Shown: positions 2,014 to 53,175 of the stretch, piece after piece
How positions within the stretch are numbered: position 1 is the stretch's first letter
How the letters are laid out: each line of letters opens with the position of its first letter
From: Actinobacteria bacterium OV320
GTDB lineage: Bacteria > Actinomycetota > Actinomycetes > Streptomycetales > Streptomycetaceae
DNA length: 64,000 nucleotides
Direction of reading: 5' to 3'
Assembly: GCA_001298545.1 (NCBI GenBank)
Contig: LJCX01000030.1
Span: 124,001-188,000 of the forward strand
Notes under the pieces: model-generated
Databases searched by the model: none
Told to the model about the DNA's origin: nothing
Seen by the model: only the letters and a program-made list of their open reading frames with translations
Program-made: the position numbers and the translations under genes

Positions 2014-2023
2014 GAATGTCAAC
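2014..2023 (-). promoter_or_regulatory. GTTGACATTC operator repeat without -10 box
   Basis: Exact copy of the repeat on the minus strand, extended as GGA. At 18 bp after TTGACA there is CTCAAA, which is not a -10 element, so this copy looks like a pure protein-binding site. Confidence 0.55.
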
Positions 2024-2089
2024 TAGAGGGGGAAACGAAAGGGGCCCCCGGATGTTCCGGAGGCCCGTGGGCGTGCGTACCCTGTCGCC

Positions 2090-2332
2090 ATGACAGGTAT
2101 CGATGGGGAAGCCAAGGCACGCACCTTCGCCACCAGGGCGGAACTTCTAGACAAGTTGGGCCGCAAAGAGGCCCTGTGGCACCGTGCGGCGATCGACGCG
2201 CAGGAGCGGCGGGCAGAGTTCGACAAGGCTGCGCAAGACGTCATGGCGGGTGCCAACAGCGTCACCGTTGGGCGGACGACGTACACCGTTGTGGTTGACG
2301 AAGATACTGACGTGACGACAGATCACAGCTAA
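2090..2332 (+). CDS. Hypothetical 80-aa helical protein
   Basis: Unrecognised. The N-terminal 55 residues are charged and helical (RAELLDKLGRKEALWHRAA) and the end is acidic. There is no clear ribosome site before the ATG at 2090. A GC-rich hairpin lies just upstream (about 2041-2075) and another (2343-2367) separates it from the next rightward gene. It is one of three small rightward genes between integrase and the leftward arm, a position where temperate phages often keep integration- or excision-related genes. No function can be assigned. Confidence 0.55.
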   Translation: MTGIDGEAKARTFATRAELLDKLGRKEALWHRAAIDAQERRAEFDKAAQDVMAGANSVTVGRTTYTVVVDEDTDVTTDHS

Positions 2333-2391
2333 CCTGGGTCAAGTGCCCGGTAACAGGGCCGGGCATGACACCCAGTTAGGACAATCGAAAA

Positions 2392-2736
2392 ATGACCCAA
2401 GCGGACAACCCTTCGGGGTTGGGAATGTCGCTTGACTCTCGCCCCACCCAAGGCCAGAGGCAAGCATCTGTCGATGTCACAACGCCACTGCCTCCCGGGT
2501 GGGGTTCGTTCTGTTCAGTGCCAGATCCTCGCCGTGAGAACTCGTTCGGTCGCTGGTACGCCTGCGCTCCTTGGCTGGTGCACCCCTTGCAGAGGGCGGC
2601 CGAGGGCGCACTGAGCAAGCAGTTCTCAGAGATGCTGGTTCAGACCGTAGTTGCCGCCACGTGGATCGAGCTGCACGCCGCTGTGGCGGACCAGATGGAC
2701 ATCTACGAGACCCTCATGGGGCGGGCATGGGAATGA
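2392..2736 (+). CDS. Hypothetical 114-aa protein
   Basis: Unrecognised. The first half is rich in Pro, Ser and Gln with aromatic stretches (PPGWGSF, FGRWYACAPW). The second half is helical. There is a modest AGGA site upstream. Its TGA overlaps the next start (ATGA), so the two are probably co-translated. Confidence 0.6.
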   Translation: MTQADNPSGLGMSLDSRPTQGQRQASVDVTTPLPPGWGSFCSVPDPRRENSFGRWYACAPWLVHPLQRAAEGALSKQFSEMLVQTVVAATWIELHAAVADQMDIYETLMGRAWE

Positions 2737-2993: not shown

Positions 2994-3009
2994 ACCAGAG
3001 TGCACGCCA

Positions 3010-3040
3010 AGAGGCCCCAGGGAGATCCCCTGGGGCCTCT
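3010..3040. terminator. Bidirectional terminator between convergent genes
   Basis: Thirteen-base arms (AGAGGCCCCAGGG/CCCTGGGGCCTCT) with a 5-base loop lie between the rightward genes ending at 2993 and the leftward operon ending at 3053. Confidence 0.8.
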
Positions 3041-3052
3041 AGCGTTTGGGTC

Positions 3053-4147: not shown

Positions 4148-4374
4148 ATCATCAGTGCGTCTTTGATCTCGCCGGTTCCAACGAACTGCTTGAACGAGCC
4201 GTCGTCCTGGTGGACGCGCACGGTCGGCACAGCAGAGACCCCGTCGGGGATGCCCTTCTCCCGGATGTTCCACTCCTCGACAGTCCAGTCCCGGTCGACG
4301 GCCGCCTTGAACAGAGCAGGCTTGAGCTGTCGGCAAGGCTGGCAAGTAGGACTGGTGTAGATAGTGATGTTCAT
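4144..4374 (-). CDS. nrdH: NrdH-like glutaredoxin
   Basis: 76 aa with the redox-active CQPC at residues 13-16 after an ITIYTSPT strand, and the cis-proline motif SAVPTVRV at about 47-54. It is expected to supply electrons to ribonucleotide reductase (10.4-12.4 kb). Its ATG overlaps the polymerase stop (TAATG) and its own stop overlaps the deaminase start, so the three genes are coupled. Confidence 0.85.
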   Translation of the reverse strand: MNITIYTSPTCQPCRQLKPALFKAAVDRDWTVEEWNIREKGIPDGVSAVPTVRVHQDDGSFKQFVGTGEIKDALMI

Positions 4375-6482
4375 TAGTGCTTGCTCGCTTCCTCAAGTTC
4401 ATAAATGGAGCCCCAAGACTCCCTAGCGATTTCAGGGTCAGTCGGGATCATCAGACCCCGCACCTCTTCCTGCATCATCTTGGCCGTGAGGTTGGCCCCG
4501 AATAGGGACTTACCCTTCGGCAACGTGAAGAGGATTTCGTCGTGGATCGGGAGCAACATCCGCTCCTTGAGCCCGGCCGCAGCGAGACGGAGAATCGCAC
4601 GGCACGTAATGTCGCGAGATCCAGACTGAACGAAGTAGTTCGTGCCACGGAAGGCAGAGCGACGATCGACCATGAGACGACGACCCGAAGGCGTCGTGAT
4701 GAAGCCCTGTCGACGGGCCTCCTTAGTCTTGTCCTCCATAAACTTGGCGACGCCGGGGAACGTCTTCTTGAACGACTCGATAATCTCGGATGCCTTCTCA
4801 AGACTGATACCAGCCTGAGTAGCCAGAGCGGGCGGGCCTCCCCCGAACACGACGAGGAAGTTACACATCTTGCCAATCTTGCGAGATACACCCGCACCAT
4901 CAGCGGTGACCTGGTGAAGGTCTTCATCATTGGCGAACGCGGCCAGCATTCGTTCGTCGCCAGACCAAGCGGCCAGGAACCGAAGTTCCATGTTCGCGTA
5001 GTCGGTCGAGCAGATGACCTCTTCGAGATCTGCCAGGAAGCAGTTACGAATCTCGGCCTCACCGGCCGGGAGCGTCTGTGCTGGAATCCCCTGAATAGAC
5101 ATCCTTGCCGTGGTGGCCTGGATGCTATTTATCGACGGGTGTACGTATCCCTTCGAGTCGACCTGACTGAGGAAGTTTTCCAGCCATGTCGTCCGTTTCT
5201 TGCGGGCCGACTTGGCACGGCGAACCGCCATAGCCATCAAGTCGCCTACCTTCTCCATCTGCGCGAGAAGGTCATCACTCAGGCTTAGTGCACCGGTCTT
5301 CTTAGACCGACTGATCCACGACTGATCCCCCTTGTGCATGTCTCCGTCGATGTAGAACACCTCAGGGTGCCTACGATCAAATGCTTCATCTCCCCCATCC
5401 CCCAGCCAGTAGTCCATGAGCTGCTTGATGGACCAAGGATTCTCGACACCCAGGTCCCGACAAACCTGAGTCCACTCGACCTCTCGCTGATAGAGAGTAT
5501 CGACCAGGTTCTCGGTGTACTCCTTATCCAGTCGAATACCTCGACGGGACATGTAGGAGCAAGCCTCAGCAACCTTGTGCTCGAAGGTCGGGAGGTCCAT
5601 CCATCCGATGCCCTCACCAATCCACGAACGCTTGTAGACGCTTGAGGGCAGGTTCTTCTTGAGGATACGGAACAGGCGGAAACAAAGGACCGGATCGAGT
5701 CCGGCGTACGTCATGTAGCCGCCATGATTCCAAGGCACGTACTTCCATACGTTTTCCTTGGTTATCCGAACCTCAGCCGGACGAAACACTTCCTCGACCG
5801 CGTCAGGATCAGTGACGAGAGTTGCCATAGCCGAGACGAACTTGTCGTCGTCCGGAGCCAGCATTCCCGTCTCGTCGGCCGCCCTCATGTGGTCGGCAGA
5901 GACCGAGACCTTAGCCCCAGACTCCAGCGTCACAACATAGTGAGAGAGGATGACTCCAGACTTCTGGGAATTCATCGAACGAGCAATGTCGTTCATCGAA
6001 CCCTTGATCTTGGCAGCCATACCGTTATCGATGTAAGCCTTGGTCAGACTGAACAACGAATGACCAGTACCGCCTTCCATCTCCTGACGGTTATCAACAA
6101 GGTGGGCGTAGATCTTGGTGTCGCGGACCTTAGGCCACAGCTCCTCCATCGTCAGATCAGTAGTGGCATCGAGCACCAACAAGTCGTACGGGGCGTTCTG
6201 GAAGATCAGTGTCTTGATATGCCTCAGGGCACCCACAGCGGCGGCCAGGAGCGCGCCGTGCAGCTCCACAGGGATGACATAGCTCTCGGTGGCATTGCCG
6301 AACTGGACCGTGCGGAGGCGGAAGGAGTCGGCCCACCAATCGAGGCCGGTGGTCTCGGTGTCGCAGCCGAGGAGCTGCTCGTTCAGCCGTACCCAGGTCA
6401 CGAACTCGGGGATGTCCTCGGGGTTGTCGAGGACGTTGATGTTGATCACGTCGCCCGCAATCTTCGTACAGAACCGAATCAA
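4374..6482 (-). CDS. Family A DNA polymerase with 3'-5' exonuclease domain
   Basis: 702 aa, TTG start behind AAGGAGG. The exonuclease domain shows D41/E43 (DTETTGL), D100 (FQNAPYD) and Y259...D263. Polymerase motif A is at 494-502 (DYANMELRF), motif B at 534-547 (R534, K538, F542, F546-G) and motif C at 647-649 (HDE). In motif B the usual Tyr before Gly is Phe546. There is no 5' nuclease domain, as is usual for phage enzymes. It replicates the phage genome with the primase and helicase encoded at 15.6-18.2 kb. A promoter-like repeat cluster lies at 6505-6560. Confidence 0.95.
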   Translation of the reverse strand: MIRFCTKIAGDVININVLDNPEDIPEFVTWVRLNEQLLGCDTETTGLDWWADSFRLRTVQFGNATESYVIPVELHGALLAAAVGALRHIKTLIFQNAPYDLLVLDATTDLTMEELWPKVRDTKIYAHLVDNRQEMEGGTGHSLFSLTKAYIDNGMAAKIKGSMNDIARSMNSQKSGVILSHYVVTLESGAKVSVSADHMRAADETGMLAPDDDKFVSAMATLVTDPDAVEEVFRPAEVRITKENVWKYVPWNHGGYMTYAGLDPVLCFRLFRILKKNLPSSVYKRSWIGEGIGWMDLPTFEHKVAEACSYMSRRGIRLDKEYTENLVDTLYQREVEWTQVCRDLGVENPWSIKQLMDYWLGDGGDEAFDRRHPEVFYIDGDMHKGDQSWISRSKKTGALSLSDDLLAQMEKVGDLMAMAVRRAKSARKKRTTWLENFLSQVDSKGYVHPSINSIQATTARMSIQGIPAQTLPAGEAEIRNCFLADLEEVICSTDYANMELRFLAAWSGDERMLAAFANDEDLHQVTADGAGVSRKIGKMCNFLVVFGGGPPALATQAGISLEKASEIIESFKKTFPGVAKFMEDKTKEARRQGFITTPSGRRLMVDRRSAFRGTNYFVQSGSRDITCRAILRLAAAGLKERMLLPIHDEILFTLPKGKSLFGANLTAKMMQEEVRGLMIPTDPEIARESWGSIYELEEASKH

Positions 6483-6504: not shown

Positions 6505-6560
6505 GAATGCCAACCGGGGCCCTGCTCTCATGATGCAGGGTCCCCGATCCGAATGTCAAC
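6505..6560 (-). promoter_or_regulatory. Repeat-type promoter, hairpin and second repeat before DNA polymerase
   Basis: An exact GTTGACATTC copy (6551-6560) is followed after 18 bp by CATCAT (6530-6535). A strong stem (6516-6525 with 6535-6545) overlaps the -10. A diverged repeat (TTGGCATTCGAA, 6505-6514 region) follows just before the polymerase ribosome site. The two repeats flank the hairpin, as at 13000-13087. Confidence 0.6.
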
Positions 6561-9754: not shown

Positions 9755-9793
9755 GAGGGGCAGGGGAGTCGTCCCGCCCCTCCGAATGTCAAC
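9755..9793 (-). promoter_or_regulatory. Repeat copy plus hairpin upstream of thyX
   Basis: GTTGACATTC (9784-9793) is followed at once by a GGAGGGGC...GCCCCTCC stem (about 9755-9783). No -10 element lies 17-19 bp after TTGACA, so this copy is a binding site and not a promoter. The hairpin may end transcription from the gene upstream. Confidence 0.5.
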
Positions 9794-10327: not shown

Positions 10328-10386
10328 GAGGGGGTCTCTCTCCCCCTCTATTTCCATTATGACATTCAGTTGATCCGAATGTCAAC
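10328..10386 (-). promoter_or_regulatory. Repeat-type promoter with 5' stem-loop
   Basis: TTGACA (10380-10385), 18 bp, CATAAT (10356-10361), then a stem GAGGGGG/CCCCCTC (10328-10348) that would lie at the 5' end of the mRNA before the ATG at 10316. A partial inverted copy of the repeat (GAATGTCA) sits in the spacer. Confidence 0.75.
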
Positions 10387-12398: not shown

Positions 12399-12986
12399 CT
12401 AAAGGTTGTTCATGTGGTGGGTAAGCATCTTGACCGCGAAGGCAAGCTGCTTGGCATTGGTCCGGCATCGCCGGGGGAACCGGTACAGCTTGGTCAGCTC
12501 TGCACGAGAGGCAGTGTCGAGACGAGAGAACGCGATGTTCAGGTCAGCCTTGTCCGAGTAGGACACCGAGTCGGGGTTCTTGTAGTCCCGCTTGTTGGCG
12601 GGCTGCTTGCCCTGCTCCAGGAGAGGCAGCAGGTACCCGGCCTCCAGGAGCTTCCAGACGTCGATCTCCTGGTACGTGTACTGGCCGTACACGGCCCTCT
12701 CGCGGGCCTCGAAGTCCAGCTCCTTGGCCAGGGTCTCGGCGCGACGTACAAGCGCCCCGAGGGCGGCCACAGGGTCCAGGGCGTGTGCCTGGGCCAGTCG
12801 CACCGCTCGGTCCTGGCCCTCGTCCTCATCGAGGAAGGTGTCCATCAGTCGGCCGACCAGGTCACCGACGGCCACCGAGCCGTACCACTTCTCGGAGACG
12901 CGTTCTGCGGCCTTGATCGCCAGGGTGTACGTGGTGTCGAAGGCGTCAGCCCTGACTTCCTCAGCGGGGTTGGTCCAGGTGATCAC
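12399..12986 (-). CDS. Hypothetical 195-aa protein upstream of RNR
   Basis: GTG start with AAAGGA 6 bases upstream. Mostly helical. An acidic central part (MDTFLDEDEGQD) is followed by a basic C-terminus with a Cys-Arg pair (KLYRFPRRCRTNAKQLAFAV). It ends 13 bases before the RNR start and is probably co-transcribed. No domain is recognised. The basic end could bind nucleic acid. Confidence 0.75.
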   Translation of the reverse strand: MITWTNPAEEVRADAFDTTYTLAIKAAERVSEKWYGSVAVGDLVGRLMDTFLDEDEGQDRAVRLAQAHALDPVAALGALVRRAETLAKELDFEARERAVYGQYTYQEIDVWKLLEAGYLLPLLEQGKQPANKRDYKNPDSVSYSDKADLNIAFSRLDTASRAELTKLYRFPRRCRTNAKQLAFAVKMLTHHMNNL

Positions 12987-12999: not shown

Positions 13000-13087
13000 G
13001 AATGTCAACCGAGGGGGCCGAGAAAAAGCCGGATGCTTCCCGGCCCCTCTACTTCAAGTATGTCAGCCGTCAGATCCGAATGTCAAC
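13000..13087 (-). promoter_or_regulatory. Two repeats flanking an attenuator-like hairpin
   Basis: The first copy (13078-13087) has TTGACA, 18 bp, CATACT (13057-13062). The leader then forms either a long stem (13011-13020 with 13041-13049) or a shorter internal terminator, GCCGG/CCGGC followed by TTTTT (13023-13044). The second copy (13000-13009) has no -10 and ends at the ribosome site of the 195-aa gene. The mutually exclusive stems suggest attenuation. Confidence 0.65.
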
Positions 13088-13832
13088 CTTGGTGGCGTGC
13101 AGGGGAGATCGCCGAGCCGTCGAGCCTCTGGTTGCCTCGCGACCACTTCCCGCAGTCGTCACAGCGGTAGCGCTGGAACACCGAGACCGAGGTGTACGCC
13201 TTGCCTTCCTTGCGGAGAGCCTTGCTGCCACAGTTCGGGCAGAGGTCATCGACTCCCCCGTGATACAGCCGGTAGTTCGGGTGCGAGGGGATCCAGGGAA
13301 GGAGAGCGTCATAGACCTTCTCGGTAAGGACGACGTCCTGTTCGTTGTAGGTCTTCATCAGCTCCCAGGCCTCTTCGTTGCCTGCCATACAGTCGATCCA
13401 GAGCTGGAAGCCAGTGTGAGAAGTCTTGGCCCCGAGTCCGAGTTGCTGGGCCACATGGTCCAGCTTGTTGGACGTAAACCGGAACTGCTTCTTTGCGACG
13501 TTCAGAAGGTCGACGTGAGCGAACGGAGAAGGCGGAGTAAGTCCTTCGGCAAGGAACTCTCGATTCAGGTGAGGGATGTCGAACCTCTTGCCGTTGTAGT
13601 GGATCACAGCATCTGCATCGTCCAGGATCTCGTGGGCAGCCTCGACCATGGCCGTCTTGCCGTGGTGGTGCGTGCTGTAGAAGCTCACCGGCTCCTGGCC
13701 GTACCACTTGGCGGAGAAGCACATCACCTCCCCAGTCTCGACAAGCTGAGTGAGCGAGACGTTCTGCTTGAACATCCCCCACACGTAAGCGAGGTTCGGA
13801 CTGGTCTCAATGTCGATCGTGGCTATCTTGAT
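13083..13832 (-). CDS. DnaQ-like DEDDy 3'-5' exonuclease with C-terminal zinc ribbon, apparent ATC start
   Basis: 249 aa from ATC 13832. The N-terminus then reads (I)KIATIDIETSP, the exonuclease I motif with D7 and E9. Exo II is NGKRFDIPHLN and exo III is YNEQDVVLTEKVY (Tyr and Asp, DEDDy class). The C-terminal 45 residues contain CPNCG and CDDCG, a zinc ribbon. No ATG, GTG or TTG lies between the in-frame TAG upstream and the exo I motif. The first conventional start (ATG 13784 or GTG 13790) would delete D7/E9. Likely roles are proofreading, repair or RNA/DNA end trimming. Its stop overlaps a promoter repeat. Confidence 0.85.
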   Translation of the reverse strand: MKIATIDIETSPNLAYVWGMFKQNVSLTQLVETGEVMCFSAKWYGQEPVSFYSTHHHGKTAMVEAAHEILDDADAVIHYNGKRFDIPHLNREFLAEGLTPPSPFAHVDLLNVAKKQFRFTSNKLDHVAQQLGLGAKTSHTGFQLWIDCMAGNEEAWELMKTYNEQDVVLTEKVYDALLPWIPSHPNYRLYHGGVDDLCPNCGSKALRKEGKAYTSVSVFQRYRCDDCGKWSRGNQRLDGSAISPARHQG

Positions 13833-14425: not shown

Positions 14426-15050
14426 TGGAGACCTCCCACTTACCCGAGTCGTTGTTGTCGAGCGTCACCTTCGAGACCTGACGAGAGGCCGTGTGGTAGA
14501 CACAGATACCTTCGGGGTCCGTGAAGCCGGGGGCCGCTACCGACCCGTTCTCCTGGAGCCAGTACAGGGCCTCCTCGATGTGCTCCGATCCGAACATCCC
14601 CTCATAGAGAACCGGGACCGTATTGATCCGGCTGCCGTCGAACACCGCAGCATCGTCGTGATTCAGGTGGCCGTACCGCTCTGTATTGAACAGAGAGAAC
14701 CTGCGCTCTTCGAGCCCATAGTTTCTCTGGATTCCTCGGCCCCACCACTCACCGAAGTGGGTGCCTTCACCGAGGAGTCGAACCAGATCACGCGCATGGT
14801 CGTAGACCCATGCAGCGAACCCGTAATTGTCGGTCGTCTTTCCGGGGTAGATCAGGCGCTTCCGACTCTGCGCGGATACCACGTAGCGGACTCCGTCCAC
14901 CACAAGGGAGTGCGACTCGGGCGGGTAGTCCTCCCAACCCAAAGTCAGCTCGCTGATGTGAATCGCAGCGTTCGTGCCGTCGAGCTTTTCAGTGACGACA
15001 ATGTCTCGGAACAGCCGGGTCGTCTTGGGCCAGGGCGCGAACTCGTGCAT
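14421..15050 (-). CDS. RNA ligase (nucleotidyltransferase family)
   Basis: 209 aa. Motif I with the adenylated lysine is E21-K22-L-D-G-T-N27. Motif IV is PEGICVY (E180) and motif V carries K194 and K204 (SKVTL, DSGK). The size and the absence of an OB domain fit small Rnl2-like RNA ligases. Phage RNA ligases repair tRNAs cut by host anticodon nucleases, and this phage carries its own tRNA cluster at 32.1-32.9 kb. It starts at ATG 15050, overlapping the DUF3310 gene. Confidence 0.85.
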   Translation of the reverse strand: MHEFAPWPKTTRLFRDIVVTEKLDGTNAAIHISELTLGWEDYPPESHSLVVDGVRYVVSAQSRKRLIYPGKTTDNYGFAAWVYDHARDLVRLLGEGTHFGEWWGRGIQRNYGLEERRFSLFNTERYGHLNHDDAAVFDGSRINTVPVLYEGMFGSEHIEEALYWLQENGSVAAPGFTDPEGICVYHTASRQVSKVTLDNNDSGKWEVSN

Positions 15051-15565
15051 CAGATGGACTCCAGTCGAGCGATCTCACGGTTGATGTAGAACTGGGCTTT
15101 CTTCAGGTCCTCAACCTCTCGGTCCTGGTCCTTCTTTCCGGCCCGCGCGATGTACTTGACGGCATTGCCACGGTTGAAGTTCAGGTTCTCGGTGATGTCG
15201 ATGACCTCGGCCCCGTTGGACCAGCCGTCGGCATAGTGGCTCGGGGGGTTAACGACGTCCGCCTCCTGGGCCGCCTCTTCGAGGATTTCCTTCTCCCAGT
15301 CGGCCAGCCCTTCTGTACGAATGTCAACCTTGTGCGCAAAGAGATAGGACTCGGAACTGTCCTGGTGTCGCATCTCCTCGGCGTTGAATCCCGTTTCCGC
15401 GCCATCGTTGAAGTGGACCGCGTAGGGGTACAGGTCACCCTCGGCAATCTTGGTGATGCAGCCAAGCTCCCCGGCACGAGCCTTCAGGATGACACTGTCA
15501 CTGTTCTCGGTGGGGGTGATCACCACCCAGTCGCCAACCGCAAAGCCATTCAGAGCGTCAGTCAC
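15050..15565 (-). CDS. DUF3310 protein with N-terminal SH3-like part
   Basis: 171 aa, GTG start overlapping the primase stop. Residues 1-75 are strand-rich (FAVGDWVVITPTENSDS). Residues about 105-170 form the DUF3310 domain: NPPSHYADG, then NFNRGNAVKYIARAGKK and a final helix. This domain is common near phage replication genes and is often annotated as a nucleotide kinase, without firm evidence that I know. A copy of the GTTGACATTC repeat is embedded in the coding sequence (15319-15328). Confidence 0.8.
   Translation of the reverse strand: MTDALNGFAVGDWVVITPTENSDSVILKARAGELGCITKIAEGDLYPYAVHFNDGAETGFNAEEMRHQDSSESYLFAHKVDIRTEGLADWEKEILEEAAQEADVVNPPSHYADGWSNGAEVIDITENLNFNRGNAVKYIARAGKKDQDREVEDLKKAQFYINREIARLESI
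15319..15328 (-). promoter_or_regulatory. GTTGACATTC repeat inside the DUF3310 gene
   Basis: Exact decamer encoding V-D-I within the gene, in transcription orientation, with no -10 downstream. As an intragenic site it could only act as a roadblock-type binding site, or it is chance. Confidence 0.4.
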
Positions 15566-16655: not shown

Positions 16656-16686
16656 ATGGTAGACATTCGTAGATTCGAATGTCAAC
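16656..16686 (-). promoter_or_regulatory. Repeat-type promoter with paired inverted half-sites
   Basis: TTGACA (16680-16685), 18 bp, TACCAT (16656-16661). The spacer holds an inverted copy (GAATGTCTAC), so two half-sites face each other over 8 bp across the promoter, a good operator for a dimer. Confidence 0.7.
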
Positions 16687-18239: not shown

Positions 18240-18257
18240 GTTTGGACCCTTCTCGAT

Positions 18258-18285
18258 ATCTAACTAACTAACTAACTAACCAACA
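18258..18285 (-). repeat. (TTAG)n stop-rich tetranucleotide repeat
   Basis: On the minus strand GGTTAG is followed by four more TTAG units, beginning with the stop codon of the upstream gene. Stops occur in all three frames. Related stretches occur at 30460, 42252, 55292 and 62350. Confidence 0.7.
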
Positions 18286-18686
18286 GACCCTGTAGCGTCC
18301 CGGCCGTAGAAGTCGGGGATTGCACCCTCGTGCGGAACATCTTCCTTGTCCCGGACGTGAGGACCGGTGTCGGGGAGGTCCGACAGGAGGCCCTTGGCGT
18401 GGAGTACCCGAGTCAGGTTGGTCATCTTGCTCAGAGTCTCATCGATCGTCTTCTGCATGACCTCGATGGTTCGCTCCTGCTCGGCAACCTTCTCCTGAAG
18501 AGTGAGGACTTCAGCTTCCGCATCGAGCTGGGCGTACACCCCGTACTGCATGGCCTGTGCCACCTGCGCGGCGGCTTCTCCGCGAGTAATCAGACCGGTC
18601 GGGTCGGGGTCGGACTGGTAAGCGATCTCGGCAACAGTCTCGATGTCGGTCTCGTCGGTGATGAGTTCGATGAAGTCGTTGATCAT
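18276..18686 (-). CDS. Hypothetical coiled-coil protein
   Basis: 136 aa. The N-terminus is acidic. Residues about 55-95 form a coiled coil (LDAEAEVLTLQEKVAEQERT). The C-terminus is Gly/Asp-rich. The ATG sits only 6 bases after a -10 box, so the mRNA may be leaderless. First gene of the helicase transcript. Function unknown. Confidence 0.7.
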   Translation of the reverse strand: MINDFIELITDETDIETVAEIAYQSDPDPTGLITRGEAAAQVAQAMQYGVYAQLDAEAEVLTLQEKVAEQERTIEVMQKTIDETLSKMTNLTRVLHAKGLLSDLPDTGPHVRDKEDVPHEGAIPDFYGRDATGSVG

Positions 18687-18692: not shown

Positions 18693-18723
18693 AGCCTAGC
18701 TTCTCTTCGATCCGAATGTCAAC
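18693..18723 (-). promoter_or_regulatory. Repeat-type promoter, near-leaderless
   Basis: TTGACA (18717-18722), 18 bp, TAGGCT (18693-18698), then the ATG at 18686. No room for a ribosome site downstream of the expected start of transcription. Confidence 0.7.
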
Positions 18724-18739: not shown

Positions 18740-19561
18740 TCAGGCCTCGCTCTTGTAGTCACATGACATCTGCACCGGGCATCGTGCACACGCTTCGCCT
18801 GGGTTGGGCCGGAACTCGCCCGCCTTGACTCCTTCGTCCATCTTGCCGAACCACTCGACCAACTTGTCTCGATCGGGATTCAGCGGGATCGAACGCGAAG
18901 TCCTCCCAGTCTTGCCCAGCCAATAGTCCCCCCACTCGACTCCAGCGTCATGCAACTCATTCATAGCGAGTGCGTAAAGCTCTAGCTGAGTGTGTTCGGT
19001 TGGCTTGAGTCCAGTCTTAACATCCCGGACACCAGGTCCCTTCTTCTTCGGGTGGTTCACTATCTGGTCGATGTATCCGAGGACGTTCACTTCCCCCAGC
19101 GACAGTTCAAACTTTATCTCGACCGAACCGTTCCAGATAGTCTGTTCGGGTTGATCTTCTGTCCACCTCAGGTATGACGTGACCTGCTCTTGTCCTACCT
19201 TGAAGCGACGTTCGATGTCCTGGGGTAGCCCCTTGTAGGGCCCTGAGTTGAACCACATGTCCGGGTTCGGCTGCTTTTCGAGTGACTTGTTGATCATCGC
19301 GCTGTACGCATCCTGGTACTTGGTGCGTAGTACCTCCTCGGTGAGCGTGCGCCCCGAGTTCTCGAAGTCCTCAACCACCGCATGTACAGCCACACCCTGT
19401 TCGAGCCAGGCACCACGTATCTCGGGCACCCGCTTGACGCGGGCCAGGAGGAAGCCGTACCCGCACTCCCACCATTGCCGGGTCTGCGAGTAGGACCGAG
19501 CCCGGCTCCTGTAGGACTCGTACCGCTTCTGCTCGTCGTCGGTCAGTTCCAAAGGCCACAC
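18740..19561 (-). CDS. Cas4-like RecB-family nuclease
   Basis: 273 aa, GTG start. PD-(D/E)XK features: GVAVHAVVEDF (His), LGEVNVLGYIDQIVNH (Asp) and VRDVKTGLKP (D-x-K with the catalytic Lys). The C-terminus has C-x-x-C-x(5)-C (CARCPVQMSC), which with an earlier Cys fits the iron-sulphur cluster of Cas4/AddB-like nucleases. In L5-like phages a Cas4-family exonuclease lies beside the immunity repressor, as it does here. No CRISPR array is present, so a role in recombination or DNA end processing is more likely. Confidence 0.88.
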   Translation of the reverse strand: MWPLELTDDEQKRYESYRSRARSYSQTRQWWECGYGFLLARVKRVPEIRGAWLEQGVAVHAVVEDFENSGRTLTEEVLRTKYQDAYSAMINKSLEKQPNPDMWFNSGPYKGLPQDIERRFKVGQEQVTSYLRWTEDQPEQTIWNGSVEIKFELSLGEVNVLGYIDQIVNHPKKKGPGVRDVKTGLKPTEHTQLELYALAMNELHDAGVEWGDYWLGKTGRTSRSIPLNPDRDKLVEWFGKMDEGVKAGEFRPNPGEACARCPVQMSCDYKSEA

Positions 19562-19618: not shown

Positions 19619-20170
19619 CTAGATGCTCGCCCAGTTCACTGGGCGGACGTACACACGTTTCTGCTCTTCGGTCAGCTCGTCAGAAGTCCGGAGGATCAGG
19701 TCCCCGTCCGACTCCTCGCGGTCGACGTACTTCCATCCGCCAGTCGAGGACCACTGGTTCGGAGGCTCGTTGCGGTCGTAGGTCAGTACCTTGTCCTGCG
19801 GGTCCCCTAGCTCTCGGTAGAAGTAGCGCAGACGAGACATCTTCCAGTCTTCGAGCTTCTTGAATCCGGACAGCACGTACTCGATGTGGTGGGCGATGTA
19901 CGCCCTCTGTCCGGCCTTGGCGTGCTCTGGTTCCACGTCTCTCCATGGACTGAGACGCATGATCTCTGACTTGAGATTCTGGGGAAGTACCTCCTTTCGG
20001 TTCTTCGTGTGCTTATAGATAGCTGCTCGGGACACCCCGAACTCCTTCGCTACCTTCACGACGTTCATTCCGTCGATAGAGAGGAGTTCGTAGACAGCCT
20101 CGCTTCGGATGTGCCCGTTCTCGTCACGGCCTCGCGAAACGATCTTCGCGATTAGCGCATCCTTATCCAT
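19619..20170 (-). CDS. HTH DNA-binding protein, candidate immunity repressor
   Basis: 183 aa. A helix-turn-helix lies at about 35-56 (MNVVKVAKEFGVSRAAIYKH). The rest is helical then strand-rich, with many aromatic residues. Position next to the Cas4-like gene, its own downstream terminator, and the size (L5 gp71 is also 183 aa) suggest the phage repressor. That would make it the protein binding the GTTGACATTC repeats. This last step is inference. AGAAGGAA precedes the ATG. It follows a 70-aa gene and probably shares its transcript. Confidence 0.7.
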   Translation of the reverse strand: MDKDALIAKIVSRGRDENGHIRSEAVYELLSIDGMNVVKVAKEFGVSRAAIYKHTKNRKEVLPQNLKSEIMRLSPWRDVEPEHAKAGQRAYIAHHIEYVLSGFKKLEDWKMSRLRYFYRELGDPQDKVLTYDRNEPPNQWSSTGGWKYVDREESDGDLILRTSDELTEEQKRVYVRPVNWASI

Positions 20171-20422: not shown

Positions 20423-20779
20423 TCAGTAGATGATGCGACCGTGAATCACGACCTGAAGGAGTACATCGATGTCGAACGCATCGAGGTCCACTTCATCCAC
20501 ATCGAACATCACGAACCTGCAATGCGTGACCAGTCGCGCACTCGCCCCCTTGACCTCCCCTTTGGCGATGAGTCGAACAGCCCGCATCACCATCTCATGG
20601 GTGATGCACCACGGCTTCCAGCACTCTTCGTATGCGTCCCAGTTCTCGACAATGAACTCCCACCCTTTCGGACCGGAGACAACCGGGCTAAGTGCACCCC
20701 AGTGTGCGTAGTTACTGAAGCCACTACCCACGATCATCATCTCGGTGTGCTCGGGTGTCGCGGCCTTGACCCTGCTCAT
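20423..20779 (-). CDS. Hypothetical 118-aa protein
   Basis: ATG 20779 is 6 bases after the -10 of a repeat-type promoter. Helix-strand composition with MVMRAVRLIAKGEVKG and a C-terminal acidic stretch (DVDEVDLDAFDID). Unrecognised. First gene of the transcript leading to the candidate repressor. Confidence 0.7.
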   Translation of the reverse strand: MSRVKAATPEHTEMMIVGSGFSNYAHWGALSPVVSGPKGWEFIVENWDAYEECWKPWCITHEMVMRAVRLIAKGEVKGASARLVTHCRFVMFDVDEVDLDAFDIDVLLQVVIHGRIIY

Positions 20780-20783: not shown

Positions 20784-21038
20784 TTAACCTATCCCCTCAG
20801 AGATTCGAATGTCAACTGGCAGCGCAAGATCAAAAAACTCCTGCCCCTGATCCCACCCCTGGAACAGAGCCTCGGACAGCAGGCAGGCCACCGTGTGAGG
20901 GACGGCGTACGCCTGTGCGTCCACCTCGATGGCGGCCAGGGCCACGGCCAGGGCGAAGATGTCGTTGTCGATCCCCGCCTCCAGCCCAGCCTTGTAGGCA
21001 TACGCCTCGTCCTCCATGAACGCCTTCATTGCCGACAT
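20784..21038 (-). CDS. Hypothetical 84-aa protein
   Basis: ATG overlapping the stop of the DUF2637-HTH gene (TGATG). Acidic-helical start (MKAFMEDEAYAYKAGLEAG) and hydrophobic middle (IFALAVALAAIEV). Its final codons encode the promoter repeat. Unrecognised. Confidence 0.65.
   Translation of the reverse strand: MSAMKAFMEDEAYAYKAGLEAGIDNDIFALAVALAAIEVDAQAYAVPHTVACLLSEALFQGWDQGQEFFDLALPVDIRISEGIG
20786..20816 (-). promoter_or_regulatory. Repeat-type promoter upstream of the repressor operon
   Basis: TTGACA (20810-20815), 18 bp, TAGGTT (20786-20791), ATG at 20779: near-leaderless. It lies inside the last codons of the preceding gene (P-V-D-I-R-I-S). If the downstream HTH protein binds the repeat, the site would give autoregulation. 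Confidence 0.7.
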
Positions 21039-25782: not shown

Positions 25783-26319
25783 TCAGTTCGAGAATATGTG
25801 GTAGACGCCTACGCTCTCAAATTCGAGGTGAAACTCCCCGCCGCTCAAGTCGTCCTCAGCCTTGTCACGCATGATTGCGTCGTAGTGGGGCCGGGCCCAC
25901 TCAGGAAGTTCGGACTGGTCGTACTGCTCGCTCTGCTCGTAATACGCCATCAGCGCATCGACTTCGCCCCCGAAAAGCTCGGTCTCATACTTGCCGAGGT
26001 ACCGGTCTTCGATGCGCTCCTTAGCCGAGTCAGGGTCATTCCCTTCCTCACCCATGACGTATGCCGTGACGAAGTACCCGTGCTCTTCGATCAGCTCAGC
26101 AGTAGCGACGACAGTCTCAATCGACGCATACTCACCAAGGTCGACCATGCCGTCGTAGTCGTGGATCGCCCAGTTTTCGGCACCCTGGATAGGAGACTTT
26201 TCGAGCATCAACTCGATTGCGTGGTCTATCGAGTTTTCATTCTGAGACGCATCTATCCACTCGCCGTGCAGAACTCCGGCGTTGTAGGAAGCGAGGCAGG
26301 CCACGTAAATCTGAATCAT
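25783..26319 (-). CDS. ardA: ArdA-like antirestriction protein
   Basis: 178 aa, strongly acidic. The N-terminus IYVACLASYNAGVLHGEWID is the ArdA signature. GMVDLGEYASIETVVATAEL and EDRYLGKY also fit the family. ArdA is an elongated DNA mimic that blocks type I restriction enzymes. Expressed leftward from the early end of the genome, so it would be made soon after infection. A pair of facing repeat variants (26363-26390) lies upstream. Confidence 0.88.
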   Translation of the reverse strand: MIQIYVACLASYNAGVLHGEWIDASQNENSIDHAIELMLEKSPIQGAENWAIHDYDGMVDLGEYASIETVVATAELIEEHGYFVTAYVMGEEGNDPDSAKERIEDRYLGKYETELFGGEVDALMAYYEQSEQYDQSELPEWARPHYDAIMRDKAEDDLSGGEFHLEFESVGVYHIFSN

Positions 26320-26362: not shown

Positions 26363-26390
26363 CGGAAGACATTCAGAGCGAATGTCTACC
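26363..26390 (-). promoter_or_regulatory. Paired inverted operator variants upstream of ardA
   Basis: On the minus strand GTAGACATTC faces GAATGTCTTC over 5 bp. This is the repeat with one base change per half-site. No good -10 is seen, so it looks like an operator and not a promoter. Confidence 0.5.
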
Positions 26391-26418: not shown

Positions 26419-27228
26419 TTAGTCCCGACCGTACGGGTACTTCTCCTGGTAGCACGGCTCGCAGAGTCCGCCGCACTCGCACTCACACTGGCACTCGATC
26501 GACTCCAGTTCGTCACTGGTCATGAACCCGACCGAGTAGGTGGTGTCGATTGCGACCGATGCGCATTCGCCCTCGCAGACCGAGTAAGAGTCGGCGCACT
26601 CACGGCACACCGCACCGTCAAGCTCAGTCTTAAGGATCTCGTGGCACTCAGCGCATTCACGACGACCCAGGCTTTCGAGTGCAGCCTCAACGTCCCAGGA
26701 CTCACAGTCCGGGCAGTCACCGTGACCCGCATCGTGAAGTGCTTCCATCACCTCAGAGGCAAGATCCTCAGGGATGTTGTAGCAGTTCTCCAGAACCTTG
26801 AGAGCGTTCTCGTGCTCCAGTTCTGAGAGACGCATGTCATCGAGAACCGGGTAATCCGAGAGTGCGCGCTCAAAGCTCGCAACCTTGTTGCGGATGCCAA
26901 TGTTGCCGTAGTCGTAGGCAATCTTACCTTCGTACTCTACGCATCCCTCGTAGAACTCGATGCCCTTACGCTTGGTCTTTTCGAGTTCCTGGGTGATGAC
27001 TTCCCAGTTTGTCTTCTCCAGGGCGAACGTGCAGAAGTGGCCGTAGGACACATCCGACGCATCCTGCCATGCGACCGGTCCCGAGTTGTCCATGACGAAC
27101 GCGAAGCCGGTCCAGTCGTGTTCCTGGGCAAGCTCGATCGCGCCCTGCTCAGAGTAGTAGCCACCCCCATACCGCTGGTTGAAGTAGTTGAGTGCAGAGT
27201 CCTGGATCTTGACAGTCCTGGTGTGCAT
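26419..27228 (-). CDS. Cys-rich zinc-binding protein
   Basis: 269 aa from ATG 27228 (AAGGGATGCGTT before it). The N-terminal 180 residues are helical and acidic. The C-terminal 90 hold many Cys pairs (CPDC, CAEC, CREC, CECECGGLCEPC), enough for three or four zinc sites. Acidic overall, so protein binding is as likely as DNA binding. No family is recognised. Confidence 0.75.
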   Translation of the reverse strand: MHTRTVKIQDSALNYFNQRYGGGYYSEQGAIELAQEHDWTGFAFVMDNSGPVAWQDASDVSYGHFCTFALEKTNWEVITQELEKTKRKGIEFYEGCVEYEGKIAYDYGNIGIRNKVASFERALSDYPVLDDMRLSELEHENALKVLENCYNIPEDLASEVMEALHDAGHGDCPDCESWDVEAALESLGRRECAECHEILKTELDGAVCRECADSYSVCEGECASVAIDTTYSVGFMTSDELESIECQCECECGGLCEPCYQEKYPYGRD

Positions 27229-27271
27229 AACGCATCCCTTCGAGAGCAAATAGGCATCCTGAAATGATGTG

Positions 27272-27300
27272 GAGGCAAACATTCGTTTCGAATGCTTACC
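27272..27300 (-). promoter_or_regulatory. Diverged paired repeats upstream of the Cys-rich gene
   Basis: GGTAAGCATTC faces GAATGTTTGCC over 5 bp on the minus strand, the same inverted layout as at 26363-26390 but more diverged. No clear -10. Confidence 0.4.
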
Positions 27301-27311
27301 CCCAAGACACA

Positions 27312-27458
27312 TCAGACTGCGAGAATGGCCGTGACTTCGGACTCCGGGTACCAGCCGATAGCGTCGTCCTCCCACAGAATTGCGATCTCAACCGAGTTCT
27401 TGATGGTGCGGCGGCCGACCGTGAGACCGGACATGGTGGCGTTCTGGACCTTACGCAT
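27312..27458 (-). CDS. Hypothetical 48-aa protein
   Basis: Starts ATG-CGT-AAG, where the same ATGCGTAA is also the last two codons and stop of the gene upstream (8-bp overlap). Strands (TIKNSVEIAILWEDDAIGW). Unrecognised. Confidence 0.6.
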   Translation of the reverse strand: MRKVQNATMSGLTVGRRTIKNSVEIAILWEDDAIGWYPESEVTAILAV

Positions 27459-28728: not shown

Positions 28729-28760
28729 ACTCTATCACCTTCGGGCCTTCGAATGTCAAC
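28729..28760 (-). promoter_or_regulatory. Leftward early promoter with operator repeat
   Basis: TTGACA (28754-28759), 19 bp, TAGAGT (28729-28734). First repeat-type promoter upstream of the leftward arm. Confidence 0.6.
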
Positions 28761-29009: not shown

Positions 29010-29040
29010 ACACTCTCACCACAAGGGCTCGAATGTCAAC
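29010..29040 (-). promoter_or_regulatory. Second leftward repeat-type promoter (weak -10)
   Basis: TTGACA (29034-29039) and, 18 bp on, GAGTGT (29010-29015). The surrounding GGTGAGAGTGTCGG resembles GGTGATAGAGTCGG of the promoter at 28729-28760, so the two may be diverged copies. Confidence 0.45.
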
Positions 29041-29599
29041 CGGTGGACTCACAACTTTCGGCGTTTCGGTACTGGCGTAATGAGAGTGGCGCTAAACCGG
29101 CCAGGTAGCCCGTGTGATCCCCGAGCACTCTCACCCTTCTATGACAACGGTTCTGCCGGGTGGTTCCATCACTGCCCGGCAGTCTGTGAGTCCGTGCGCA
29201 ACCACTTCCCAACCCTTCGATTCCCTCGCTTCGCTGTCTGTACCGACTAGGCGGGGGGTAACACCGGATACCGCGCCGTTAGGCCGGTCTGTGGTCGCGC
29301 TATGGAGTTGAGCTAAGAACGGTGCCTCCCGCAGTCCCCGCCGTCCTGGCCGGTTCGTTGTGGTGACAGGGAGAACAATCCATGAACCTCGGTCGAATGT
29401 CTACCCGGCATGGTTGGTCAGGAGACGGGCACGCGCGCGTTGGGCCGACATCGTCGCAGGTCACGGCCATGATCATCTCTTGTCTACAGCTAGTGATCTC
29501 ACAACTACTTTAAGTGCAAACGTGCAGGTCAAAGGGTGTGCTCAATGGTTGGTACAAAGAAAGTTCGCAGCTGTGGCCACTGACCATGATCAATGTCCG

Positions 29600-31048: not shown

Positions 31049-31106
31049 GTTGACATTCGGATGGAGTCTGAGGGATAATGGAACTAGAGGGACAGGTCGT
31101 CCCTCT
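31049..31106 (+). promoter_or_regulatory. Main rightward promoter with operator and 5' stem-loop
   Basis: GTTGACATTC (31049-31058): TTGACA 31050-31055, 18 bp, GATAAT 31074-31079, the best match in the window. The expected transcript starts with a perfect hairpin AGAGGGAC/GTCCCTCT (31086-31106), then GAGGATGC before the ATG at 31129. It probably starts the late arm and would be shut off by the same repressor as the leftward arm. Confidence 0.8.
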
Positions 31107-31128: not shown

Positions 31129-31689
31129 ATGGCTGTTAACGAACTGATTCAGATTGCCGGTGGGGATGTCGCCTTCTACGAGACCTGCAACCAGGTGGCC
31201 AAGAATGTCCACTCTAAGTGGGAGTCCATCTCTCCTGACGATCTGACTCAGATGATCGCCATCAAGACGATGGAGAACGCGCCGACCCTCGTCAAGAACC
31301 TGCGTACGGCTGATGACCCTCTCACGTACCTGGGTCGCTCGATGTACAAGGCGGGCGTCCTTGGTGCTTCTACCGAGGTGTACGGCCGGAAGGTAGGCGG
31401 ATTCAGTGCCGCCTCTGACGATAACCCTGACTGGTACGAGGAAGCGTCGTATGGGACTCCCGAGGGCATCTACTCCACTGAGGCTATTCGGGCGGCCCTT
31501 CAGGCTCTCGACTGGTCCGACCAGAACGACCCACTGATGGTCCTGGTCGAGGATGGACTACTGAAGCTGAGTGACCGGGATCGCGAGATCATCATCGACT
31601 TCTTCGTCAACGGTGAGAAGCCCGCTTACCGAGTCCACGTTACTCGTGCGGTGGATCGCCTTACTAAGTTCGTCAATGGGTGGGCGTAA
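31129..31689 (+). CDS. Sigma-70-like / HTH protein at the head of the late arm
   Basis: 186 aa. The C-terminal 45 residues (LSDRDREIIIDFFVNGEKPA, then HVTRAVDRLTKF) resemble sigma factor region 4. The first 80 residues include SPDDLTQMIAIKTMENAP, plausible for region 2-like helices. It may be a phage sigma-type regulator of late genes. A DNA-recognition role in packaging is the alternative. Transcribed from the strongest repeat-type promoter and followed by a terminator, so it is a nearly isolated unit, fitting a regulator. Confidence 0.65.
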   Translation: MAVNELIQIAGGDVAFYETCNQVAKNVHSKWESISPDDLTQMIAIKTMENAPTLVKNLRTADDPLTYLGRSMYKAGVLGASTEVYGRKVGGFSAASDDNPDWYEEASYGTPEGIYSTEAIRAALQALDWSDQNDPLMVLVEDGLLKLSDRDREIIIDFFVNGEKPAYRVHVTRAVDRLTKFVNGWA

Positions 31690-50751: not shown

Positions 50752-50754
50752 CGA

Positions 50755-53109
50755 ATGCCTTCGTACATCAACTTTCAGGATGACACTACTTACCCTGGAG
50801 CCAAGTTCCGCCGAATGGTGGGTAGGCAGCTTGATCTAGCCCAGGGGTTTGACGACCCCGCCTCGTTCAAGGTCAAGGTGTCTAACGACAATCCCGGCAA
50901 GCTTGAAGCTGCTGTCGGTGTTGCTTGGATTAAGGATCAGGTCGGAGGCATCTACTTCGTAGAACGGGACCTGTCCCCTCTCTACGTAGCGACGTCGGGC
51001 ACTTCGGGGACCATCGTTCTCCGGGTCAAGGACTCGGCCCTTTTCGACGGCCCCAATGAACTCCTGTTGCAGGCCATTCCCACTGGGTCCGCGATTCCTG
51101 TCCGGTCGCTTCTCCTCGCCACCTATACAGGTTCGGGGTCGGATGCTGTTCTGACTGATGTTCGTTTCACTACTCCGGGGCAGTTCATCGTGTCCCGGAG
51201 TGGTCCAGCGAACTATGGGGTCCCGAATGTGGTTGCAATGGGACTGGACGCTTTCTCTCCCGGTACTCAGTACACCAATCTCACTACCGGCCTCCGGTAC
51301 GTGAAGGCGACTGATAACACCTGGAAGATCGATCAGGGGCAGAAGGGAGACACGGGCTCTCAGGGGCCCGCAGGTCCCACGGGTGCTACGGGGCCTGCTG
51401 GGGCTACTGGACCCAAGGGCGATAAGGGAGATCCGGGTAGTGCAGTTCTCCCCGGCGCTCTGCTCGTGGCCTCTTTCCAGGCCTCCGCGAAGGACAAGGC
51501 TGCTGCTGATTACCTCTGTGACGGCGTCGCGGACGACGTCCAGCTCCAGGCCGCCATCAACGCCGCCAAGGCTGCGGGTGGTGGCGTCGTTCAGCTCACG
51601 GGCGGCATCTTCAACGTGGCCGCCACGCTGACCATTACCGGCAACGCCGACGAGGACAATGCCGACACGATCACCCTTCGAGGTGTGGGGGCTCAGGCCA
51701 CCACTCTCGATATGGCTGCCAACGTCAACGGTATCGAGCTGACCAACTGGGCCATGGCCAACATCGAGGATCTCGGTATCGTCGTATCTGGTTCCGGTAG
51801 CGGTATTCACAGCACTGCTGTTCTTGCCGGTAACGAGGTCAGCTTCTGGCACTCCTCGTTCAGGAACCTCCGTCTCAATGGTGGGTTCACTTCGACCAAC
51901 ACTGGTTGGGGAATGGACCTGTCGATGCCTTGGCGCTCTTCGTTCGAGAACATCGAGATCGAGGGAACCAGGAACGGGATGCGCCTGAGCAATCAGGGAA
52001 CTGTTCAGAACGCGGGAGACTGCACGTTCACTCGCATGTTCATTGAGATCGTCGGTACCGGTGGTACGGCTATCCACATCTCGTCTCCATCGAACAACAT
52101 GAACCAGAACAACTTCAGCATGGTTGAGATCGGGGCCAACGGATCGGGATGCACCGGCATTCTGATTGATGGTGCCAGTGGTGGTGCTAGCCAGCGCTTC
52201 TGGGGACTCAACATGGAACAGTTCCAGACTGGCATCAACGTTGCTAGCGGCGAGTCCAACGTCTTTGAGTGCAACTACATCACTGGTGACACTGGTGACG
52301 CTACCAACAGGATGTTTGTCTGTGGTTCGAACGCCTACGGCAACACGTTCAGTGCTAAGTGGTGCAATGTCGAGTCCAACGGAACTCTCAAGGTGATCGA
52401 GGACAACAACACCACTTCGAATGTACCGAACATCTTCGAGGGTATTCGGATCGAGAACAACAACAGTGGCACCGTTACGTACTCCACCAGTAGCAGCACT
52501 GTTCTTCGTGACATCACCACGTTCAACACCGGCAATGCGATGCCTGCCGGACTGCTCCGCTACCCGGTGAGTGACGTCAACCTGTCCGAGTTCCACCAAG
52601 TCGACCAAGGCTTCCTGGCCTGGACTGCTGACCCGGCTGTGATCTCGGGATCCGGGTTCGTCCTCAACAGCGGAGTCGTGTACCTGTCGAGGATCAAGGT
52701 CGTCAACCGACTGACTGTCATCTCTAACCTGATGTACTACGTTGCCGTCGCCGGTACGAGCCTGACGGCTGGGCAGAGCTTCGTTGGCCTGTACAACTCC
52801 AGTGGCACCCTGCTGGCCAGCTCTGCTGATCAGACCTCCGCCATGGGGACGACCGGTGCCAAGACGGCGGCTATCACGCCCCAGACCCTTTCGGTTGGGT
52901 ACTACTACGTCGCCTTCCTAGCCAATGGCACGGGCACGGCGGTGAACGTCTCCGGTGCTGGTGGAAACACTGGCGTGACCAACATCAACTTGGCTACCGG
53001 CTCCAGCCGGTCTCTCCAGACGGCAGCGGGCAACACTGCGCTTCCGGCGTCCATCACTCTGGGGTCTCAGACGCCGAACATTGCGGTCCGCTGGGCTGGT
53101 CTCAAGTAA
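50755..53109 (+). CDS. Beta-helix tail protein 2 with collagen-like stalk
   Basis: 784 aa. Residues 1-130 are homologous to protein 1 (YINFQDDTTYPGAKFRRMVG). Residues about 197-230 are Gly-X-Y triplets (GPAGPTGATGPAGATGPKG), a collagen-like stalk. A beta-helix begins with CDGVADDVQLQAAINAA near 260. The C-terminal 130 residues are strand-rich (GLYNSSGTLLASSAD), likely the receptor-binding head. It probably trimerises. The two genes look like a duplication that diverged in the binding part. Confidence 0.88.
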   Translation: MPSYINFQDDTTYPGAKFRRMVGRQLDLAQGFDDPASFKVKVSNDNPGKLEAAVGVAWIKDQVGGIYFVERDLSPLYVATSGTSGTIVLRVKDSALFDGPNELLLQAIPTGSAIPVRSLLLATYTGSGSDAVLTDVRFTTPGQFIVSRSGPANYGVPNVVAMGLDAFSPGTQYTNLTTGLRYVKATDNTWKIDQGQKGDTGSQGPAGPTGATGPAGATGPKGDKGDPGSAVLPGALLVASFQASAKDKAAADYLCDGVADDVQLQAAINAAKAAGGGVVQLTGGIFNVAATLTITGNADEDNADTITLRGVGAQATTLDMAANVNGIELTNWAMANIEDLGIVVSGSGSGIHSTAVLAGNEVSFWHSSFRNLRLNGGFTSTNTGWGMDLSMPWRSSFENIEIEGTRNGMRLSNQGTVQNAGDCTFTRMFIEIVGTGGTAIHISSPSNNMNQNNFSMVEIGANGSGCTGILIDGASGGASQRFWGLNMEQFQTGINVASGESNVFECNYITGDTGDATNRMFVCGSNAYGNTFSAKWCNVESNGTLKVIEDNNTTSNVPNIFEGIRIENNNSGTVTYSTSSSTVLRDITTFNTGNAMPAGLLRYPVSDVNLSEFHQVDQGFLAWTADPAVISGSGFVLNSGVVYLSRIKVVNRLTVISNLMYYVAVAGTSLTAGQSFVGLYNSSGTLLASSADQTSAMGTTGAKTAAITPQTLSVGYYYVAFLANGTGTAVNVSGAGGNTGVTNINLATGSSRSLQTAAGNTALPASITLGSQTPNIAVRWAGLK

Positions 53110-53113
53110 GTGG

Positions 53114-53175
53114 GTTGACATTCGGATGACCTTGCTGTCATGATTAGAAGAGAGGGGCCGCCAAGGTGGCCCCTC
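53114..53175 (+). promoter_or_regulatory. Repeat-type promoter with 5' stem-loop inside the tail operon
   Basis: GTTGACATTC 53114-53123: TTGACA 53115-53120, 18 bp, CATGAT 53139-53144, then a stem GAGGGGCC/GGCCCCTC (53152-53175) at the expected 5' end of the mRNA, and a GTG start at 53198. It would give the last tail and lysis genes their own regulated transcript. Confidence 0.75.

Follow-up and report, generated by a model that had tools for sequence, protein, structure and literature searches.

A probable cluster A-type immunity circuit with oriented, promoter-rich repressor sites in an actinobacterial prophage

Which protein reads the short repeat that recurs along a 64,000-nucleotide stretch of the Actinobacteria bacterium OV320 genome, and what does it control? 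The stretch (hereafter the window, to whose positions all site coordinates refer) holds 14 exact copies of the decamer GTTGACATTC. The original prediction saw in them a mixture of operators and stoperators bound by the product of the gene at 19619-20170, with an origin independent of the phage L5 system. The immunity of cluster A phages is a model for a repressor that may halt transcription elongation. Our analysis indicates that the window very probably carries a cluster A-like prophage with its immunity circuit, in which the 19619-20170 repressor would act on promoter and stoperator-like sites. The mixed system is well supported by a homologous repressor, by oriented sites at gene ends and by the presence of both promoter and non-promoter sites; its supposed independence is not. 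It appears to be the same kind of machine as the gp71-type system of L5, with a changed 'fixed' half-site and a promoter-rich layout.

All 14 copies lie at the coordinates and on the strands originally given: the minus strand carries 12, from 2014 to 29040, and the plus strand two, at 31049 and 53114. Each points with local transcription, as predicted, and no exact copy in the window points the other way. With up to one mismatch allowed, the decamer has 21 matches in the window where 3.57 were expected, a count reached in 0 of 100 shuffles; on these numbers, a chance origin of the 14 sites is rejected. The seven one-mismatch matches taken alone are not clearly above chance, and three of them (16659, 31203 and 42219) are reversed relative to local transcription. 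A scan of the whole genome (10.14 Mb) returned 17 exact copies, 14 of them inside the window, and no copy of the pattern read backwards. Two of the three copies outside the prophage (G000 C28:330035 and C33:71433) are followed by -10-like hexamers, as judged by eye, and may be ordinary host promoters. The decamer is absent from all 15 Mycobacterium, Rhodococcus and Gordonia phage records scanned. Among the matches listed in a literature search for it, no paper dealt by its title with such a phage; one concerned Shiga-toxin prophages.

The sites extend past the decamer, as had been proposed, with G as the next base in 14 of 14, and their consensus is nearer GG-TTGACA-TTCGgA than the one first given; the base before TTGACA is also G throughout. 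The stretch GGTTGACATTCGGAT represents the candidate repressor target DNA. A position weight matrix (PWM) of the sites, run at a low threshold, gave 34 matches across the window, of which many must be spurious. Nine of the 14 sites lie within 30 bp of the upstream stop codon of a mechanical open reading frame (ORF; at least 60 amino acids). By strand, this holds for 8 of 12 minus-strand sites, against 13% of random positions, and for one of the two plus-strand sites. No start or stop of such ORFs was found near 28751 or 29031, and the placement of 15319 had to be corrected, as it falls inside an ORF.

The candidate reader is the 183-residue protein encoded on the minus strand at 19619-20170, composed of a helix-turn-helix (HTH) domain and a stoperator domain. 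It matches phrog_357 (transcriptional repressor; E 4.7e-23) and the 'Immunity repressor' entries 7r6r/7tz1 of the PDB (E 3.2e-11, or 4e-59 with a 38-sequence profile). Its AlphaFold model (pLDDT 88.4, pTM 0.63) has 7r6r as its only Foldseek match in the PDB at E<=0.001, and VIA-align superposes the two with a Z of 17.6 over 162 residues at an rmsd of 7.1, so the domains of the model and of 7r6r may be placed differently. By sequence, profile and predicted fold, then, the protein is homologous to the cluster A immunity repressor of L5 and TipsytheTRex, the latter 98% identical to that of L5 (PMC9283540, in excerpt). Relatives at E<=1e-3 were found by tblastn in 995 phage records, all from Mycobacterium, Rhodococcus or Gordonia phages. 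The identical repressor is encoded on three IMG/VR contigs.

The genomic setting agrees with this assignment. The window approximates one prophage, with 55-62% G+C inside and 69-76% in the flanking 2-kb steps sampled. Its integrase (227-1870; phrog_95) would be of the serine type, judging from its length and a DNA-invertase match. The minus-strand early genes run in the order dCMP deaminase, DNA polymerase, thymidylate synthase, ribonucleotide reductase, sigma-K-like factor, RNA ligase, primase, endonuclease VII, DnaB-like helicase, exonuclease and repressor; past the repressor come tRNAs and then the plus-strand structural arm. Bxb1 has the same succession of polymerase, ribonucleotide reductase, sigma-like factor, primase, endonuclease VII, helicase, exonuclease and repressor. 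The separate arms, the early order and the integrase lying between structural and early arms, seen in the relative G392, are those of the cluster A genome type. DNA similarity of the window to phages is limited to short pieces or is missing, so that by DNA the prophage falls outside cluster A. The gene immediately downstream of the repressor, on the same strand, encodes an exonuclease (18740-19561; phrog_69, E 6.3e-33), which is of the Cas4 family in cluster A. The exonuclease follows the repressor after one small gene in 12 of the 14 small repressor loci compared, the exceptions being Taquito and Petruchio; in Bxb1 the distance is six genes. The prophage encodes two sigma-K-like proteins (phrog_354), at 12399-12986 and 31129-31689, each downstream of a site.

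Relatives allow the sites to be compared. One of the three contigs (G394) has the same DNA across the 20.5 kb compared, and the relative G392 has 87-100% identical pieces across the 19 kb compared. All 13 sites covered in G392 are conserved, 29031 lying beyond the contig end. The decamers stay in place while the spacing shifts at 13000/13078 and core-adjacent bases change at 15319.

Many of the sites appear to be embedded in promoters. The original prediction of a -10 box at about nine sites holds: the pattern NANNNT follows at a spacer of exactly 18 bp in 9 of 14, compared with 0-3 sites at any other single offset from 8 to 39, and one more site has a candidate box at 19 bp. Scored against TATAAT at spacers of 17-19 bp, seven of the 14 match in four or more of the six bases, as do 3.1% of random positions (binomial p ~8e-8). 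The same scan in 12 named relatives gave 27 of 226 (Fisher p 0.001, with sites counted as independent and relatives' sites defined as exact CTTGACA with a score of at least 15). NANNNT at one spacer (16-19) is present at no more than 20% of sites in these phages, with maxima of 2/10 in Bxb1 and 4/22 in TNguyen7.

Eight sites are predicted operator-promoters, with +1 set at seven bases past the -10. On the minus strand, 20807..20816 (TAGGTT at 18) and 18714..18723 (TAGGCT at 18) have predicted starts at 20779 and 18686 that coincide with the ATG of ORFs 20423-20779 and 18276-18686, so that these transcripts would be leaderless. Site 16677..16686 has TACCAT at 18 and forms a dyad with the reversed near-site at 16659 (+). 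Site 13078..13087 (CATACT at 18), whose TGA terminates ORF 13083-13784, and site 10377..10386 (CATAAT at 18), directly past the ribonucleotide reductase stop, are both followed by a predicted +1 at AGAGGG. Site 6551..6560 (CATCAT at 18) lies upstream of the DNA polymerase gene (4374-6482). The two plus-strand sites, 31049..31058 at the left edge of the rightward arm, with GATAAT at 18, and 53114..53123 between tail genes (CATGAT at 18), also have a predicted AGAGGG start. Possible early promoters are formed by the minus-strand sites 28751..28760 (TAGAGT at 19) and 29031..29040 (a weak GAGTGT at 18).

The predicted transcripts from 10349, 13050, 31086 and 53151 begin with AGAGGG and fold immediately into a hairpin with differing loops. 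The leaderless and AGAGGG-hairpin patterns were noticed in the data and are thus treated as hypotheses; the hairpins are perhaps 5' stabilisers. As terminators, scans of the transcribed strand flagged only 31086-31106, with 53151 outside the scanned stretch. At 13050 a short stem precedes TTTTTC, as seen by eye, and this T-run is missing from G392. Taken together, the stretches downstream of the sites do not have unusual folding energies.

At the remaining four minus-strand sites, as originally stated, no -10 was found. Site 13000..13009 lies 13 bp ahead of the start of ORF 12399-12986 and downstream of the 13078 promoter; 9784..9793 is in the gap ahead of the thymidylate synthase start (9735); and at 2014..2023 the core is followed by GGAG, with an ATG close downstream. 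These three are stoperator-like. Site 15319..15328, within ORF 15050-15565, is the least certain of the 14 and is kept in G392 despite differing bases just downstream. The near-site GTTGGCATTCGAA at 6505..6514 (minus), between the 6551 promoter and the polymerase start, is a possible stoperator. Two uncertain minus-strand variants, both GTAGACATTCG, lie at 26380..26389, in the gap that separates ORF 26419-27375 from ORF 25783-26319 and as part of a dyad, and at 29395..29404.

The sites without a -10 could be decaying remnants of promoters, leaving a plain multi-operator repressor with no stoperator function. The greater number of promoter-like sites would fit this, as would the position of 13000 and 6505 just downstream of promoter-like sites. 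We nevertheless regard it as unlikely: all four sites without a -10 retain the full decamer, 9784 and 13000 occupy gene gaps as cluster A stoperators do, and sites of a Saccharopolyspora prophage with a homologous repressor, described below, also precede ribosome-binding sites or terminator-like repeats, as seen by eye.

A second alternative takes all 14 sites for strong phage promoters whose shared -35 or extended element is recognised by a sigma-like factor of the phage (12399-12986 or 31129-31689), with the repressor acting elsewhere. The -10 geometry at nine sites and the two encoded sigma-K-like proteins speak for it. However, the full decamer is kept at the four sites lacking a -10, TTGACA is the ordinary housekeeping -35 hexamer, and among relatives whose repressors are homologous the sequence after TTGACA varies between phages and most sites have no -10, which makes this explanation highly improbable. 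An unrelated repressor that converged on a stoperator-like scheme, the 'independent version' of the original prediction, is scarcely credible: the first base of the consensus does differ from published ones, but the repressor is a homologue of gp71, the early-arm order is that of cluster A phages such as Bxb1 and the TTGAC core is shared, and because of this homology and gene order an independent origin is rejected.

How new, then, is the recognition sequence? The L5 core TGTCAAG, which had been named as different, is the reverse complement of CTTGACA. A -35 hexamer within the site is therefore no distinction, since the L5-type sequence reads CTTGACA on the other strand; the consensuses of Che12 (GGTGGTTGTCAAG), Phlei (GCTTGGGTGTCAAG) and KatherineG (GGGGATTGTCAAG), given in excerpts of PMC5559632, and of Rasputin (TGTCTATTGTCAAG; PMC13313380, in excerpt) likewise end in TGTCAAG. 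Of 13 named relatives, 12 yielded repeats containing TTGAC in a de novo k-mer search that assumed no core, Taquito being the only one without; in the window itself, k-mer ranking placed TAACTAACTA at the top and not the site motif. Aligned on TTGACA, the preceding base is C in the consensus of each of the 12 named phages whose motif was resolved. Positions 1 and 9-13 are reported as invariant in cluster A/CA sites in the available portion of PMC5559632; here the sites do not start with CTTGACA as in that group, the first base being G in 14 of 14. Only this G can thus be called new, as the rest of the site is within the known range (TTGACATTCA occurs seven times in phage Loser).

The likeness to L5 and TipsytheTRex comprises a homologous two-domain repressor near an exonuclease, gene-end sites that are asymmetric and oriented, and an identical early-arm order. 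The Pleft operator of L5, which overlaps the -35, is a further parallel. The systems differ in the base before TTGACA (G here, C there), in the residue at the W50 position (K here) and in the host, which we take to be Streptomyces. The Rhodococcus cluster CA phages Rasputin and WC1 and the Gordonia A15 phages KatherineG and Strosahl also have homologous repressors, a TTGACA core and oriented gene-end sites (PMC13313380 and PMC5559632, both in excerpt; sites of WC1 and Strosahl from our motif search), but theirs begin with C and differ in the variable half (CTTGACAATAGACA, CTTGACAATCCCC). A repressor-stoperator system has been stated for the Streptomyces phages R4 and phiScoe (PMC10276819, in excerpt), so stoperators in Streptomyces are not new as such. 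These phages share the Streptomyces host, and the R4 repressor is annotated as L5 gp71-like, but it is much more distant: blastp with the 19619-20170 protein gave E 8.4 at best and the family profile 47 bits. R4 has an enriched repeat, CACTT(A/G)CACAG, as a candidate stoperator only, and a different gene order; the combination of an R4-like repressor with this repeat is not what we found in the window. Literature on stoperators returned some items naming Streptomyces and none found naming Saccharopolyspora. Phage phiC31 resembles the present system in having one repressor for many dispersed promoters, and differs in having symmetric sites, with many conserved inverted repeats at its early promoters, and an unrelated repressor.

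Homologues of the repressor also exist in other SPECIFICITIES. A first scan of genome contigs for relatives found none. Among 390 genomes of the Saccharopolyspora indica G781 family (Pseudonocardiaceae), 16 have a homologue. Counting the prophage's own genome, the figures are 3 of 394 for the host's family and 2 of 392 for its genus, and with phrog_357 1 of 396 for the phylum. A scan of viral records with the Saccharopolyspora repressor found no relatives. Seven of 22 repressor-bearing regions, our own included, carry a counted motif of TTGAC or TTAAC type. These are a Saccharopolyspora indica prophage (C22; eight copies of TTGACAATAA, with G ahead of seven), G051 of the host's genus (TTGACATCCA, eight), G1137 (TTGACTAGTT, 14, with C ahead of 12), G908 (CTTGACATG, four; a weak motif), and two in which oriented sites have TTAACA in place of TTGACA, namely G1010 (L234-L235; CTTAACATTCA, five) and G863 (L218-L219; TTTAACAGTTC, three). 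Some sites of the Saccharopolyspora prophage lie just ahead of ribosome-binding sites or terminator-like repeats (by eye). None of its 11 sites reaches four of six matches to TATAAT, and TAAGCT follows three of them at ~16 (by eye). A further scan gave no clear motif for Lentzea, IMGVR2802429328, Williamsia, Gordonia hankookensis, M. fragae or L107.

To rationalize the changed first base, we compared the recognition helices. In TipsytheTRex, R45 and Q46 touch guanines, and the base on which W50 stacks lies outside the consensus; R45A and W50A abolish function and Q46A does not (PMC9283540, in excerpt). The aligned residues of the 19619-20170 protein are R, A and K. An aromatic residue 50 (W, F, Y or H) goes with a first base C in 15 of 15 hand-picked cases (the 12 named phages, G051, G1137 and G908); M. 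rhodesiae, with motif CTTGACAGCTA and W50, was left out of this set. Where residue 50 is non-aromatic, the first base is G in our prophage (K) and C22 (L), C in G1010 (Q) and T in G863 (Q; three sites), a non-C base in three of four, with G1010 contradicting the rule, which is post hoc and drawn from related sequences. A wider recount covered 58 loci with at least six NTTGACA on the repressor strand, many from near-identical phages: of 56 with W, F or H, 51 have a C majority and five no majority, and the single K and L loci have G. At position 46, Q accompanies TTGAC in 15 of 15 (the 12 named phages, G051, C22 and G1137), and A accompanies TTGACA in our prophage and G908 and TTAACA in G1010 and G863. 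We infer that the altered helix, in which R45 is retained, A replaces Q46 and K replaces W50, would determine the changed first base.

Taken as a whole, the locus shares with gp71-type systems a homologous repressor with HTH and stoperator domains, many asymmetric sites oriented with transcription (14 of 14), and sites at gene ends or in short gaps with some in promoters, the promoter-like fraction (9 of 14) being much larger than in relatives. Several points weigh against the proposed circuit. Cluster A phages have 20-30 sites according to an excerpt of PMC6550527, more than the 14 exact ones here, and one of these, 15319, is within an ORF. W50 and D104 are required for TipsytheTRex immunity (PMC9283540, in excerpt); their aligned equivalents are K and W, with R45 and R108 conserved. 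Conservation in G392 is weak evidence, because most stretches around the sites are identical to the window. Finally, 15 of the 22 repressor-bearing regions have no counted motif (G836, G1131, G991, G883, G1114, G1008a, G1008b, G796, G892, G876, G1325, G031, Saccharopolyspora C43 and Longimycelium C2 and C4), so not every homologue need act through such sites.

We nonetheless favour the cluster A-like circuit and propose the following mechanism. The repressor would bind the asymmetric GGTTGACATTCGgA, most likely as a monomer. At nine or ten sites TTGACA would double as the -35 box, followed by a -10 at a spacing of 18 bp or, in one case, 19 bp, and bound repressor would therefore exclude RNA polymerase from these promoters. 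At 2014, 9784, 13000, 15319 and perhaps 6505, which would have no promoter, bound repressor would instead form a roadblock, that is, a stoperator, always presenting the same face to the oncoming polymerase; 13000 and 6505 would act as a second lock within the leader of a repressed promoter. We infer from the sequence that the 19619-20170 protein would bind these sites, that binding would block both initiation and elongation, and that nine promoters would be in use.

A broader joint reading seems to us evenly poised between right and wrong. Its first part is that the gp71-type family has a rewirable 'fixed' half-site, with helix changes at positions 46 and 50 outside mycobacteriophages going together with a changed 'invariant' end (C1 to G, TTGACA to TTAACA). 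Its second part is a regulon shift from one operator and many stoperators to about nine co-repressed promoters of identical geometry, two leaderless and four with a 5' hairpin. New here, at the level of sequence, are the G ahead of TTGACA, the promoter-rich layout with its 18-bp spacing and the other actinomycete repressor-site pairs, two with TTAACA. The prophage and its actinomycete relatives enlarge the set of such pairs and, as they contain natural changes at positions treated as fixed, make the recognition code directly testable. Promoter and non-promoter sites of the same sequence in one genome also offer a way to separate blocked initiation from blocked elongation.

Some minor features accompany these sites. 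Two weak PWM matches at 20257 and 20284 (minus) lie in the gap upstream of the repressor start; repressor autoregulation is possible, and they are possibly due to chance. Inverted pairs ACATTC..GAATGT, with half-sites facing each other, occur at 10362-10382, 16663-16682 and 26369-26385 (three found, 0.10 expected), and a dimeric or second regulator is possible. On contig C43 of Saccharopolyspora indica (L170 2661-2720 and 5989-6010), a repressor homologue sits in DNA of 71% G+C with the palindromes GTCAATTTCG..CGAAATTGAC nearby, possibly a domesticated repressor with symmetric operators. G1131 encodes a protein similar to this homologue, with other repeats, and both regions have strong repeats of another, partly palindromic kind. 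A second repeat of the window, TATCTAACTAACTAAGTAAG, is found on the plus strand at 18257, 30456, 42259, 55291 and 62348 (at most three mismatches; seven overlapping matches at five places, none in 100 shuffles). The G051 prophage has similar elements, several followed by inverted repeats as judged by eye, and the repeat is perhaps a multi-frame stop ahead of a terminator.

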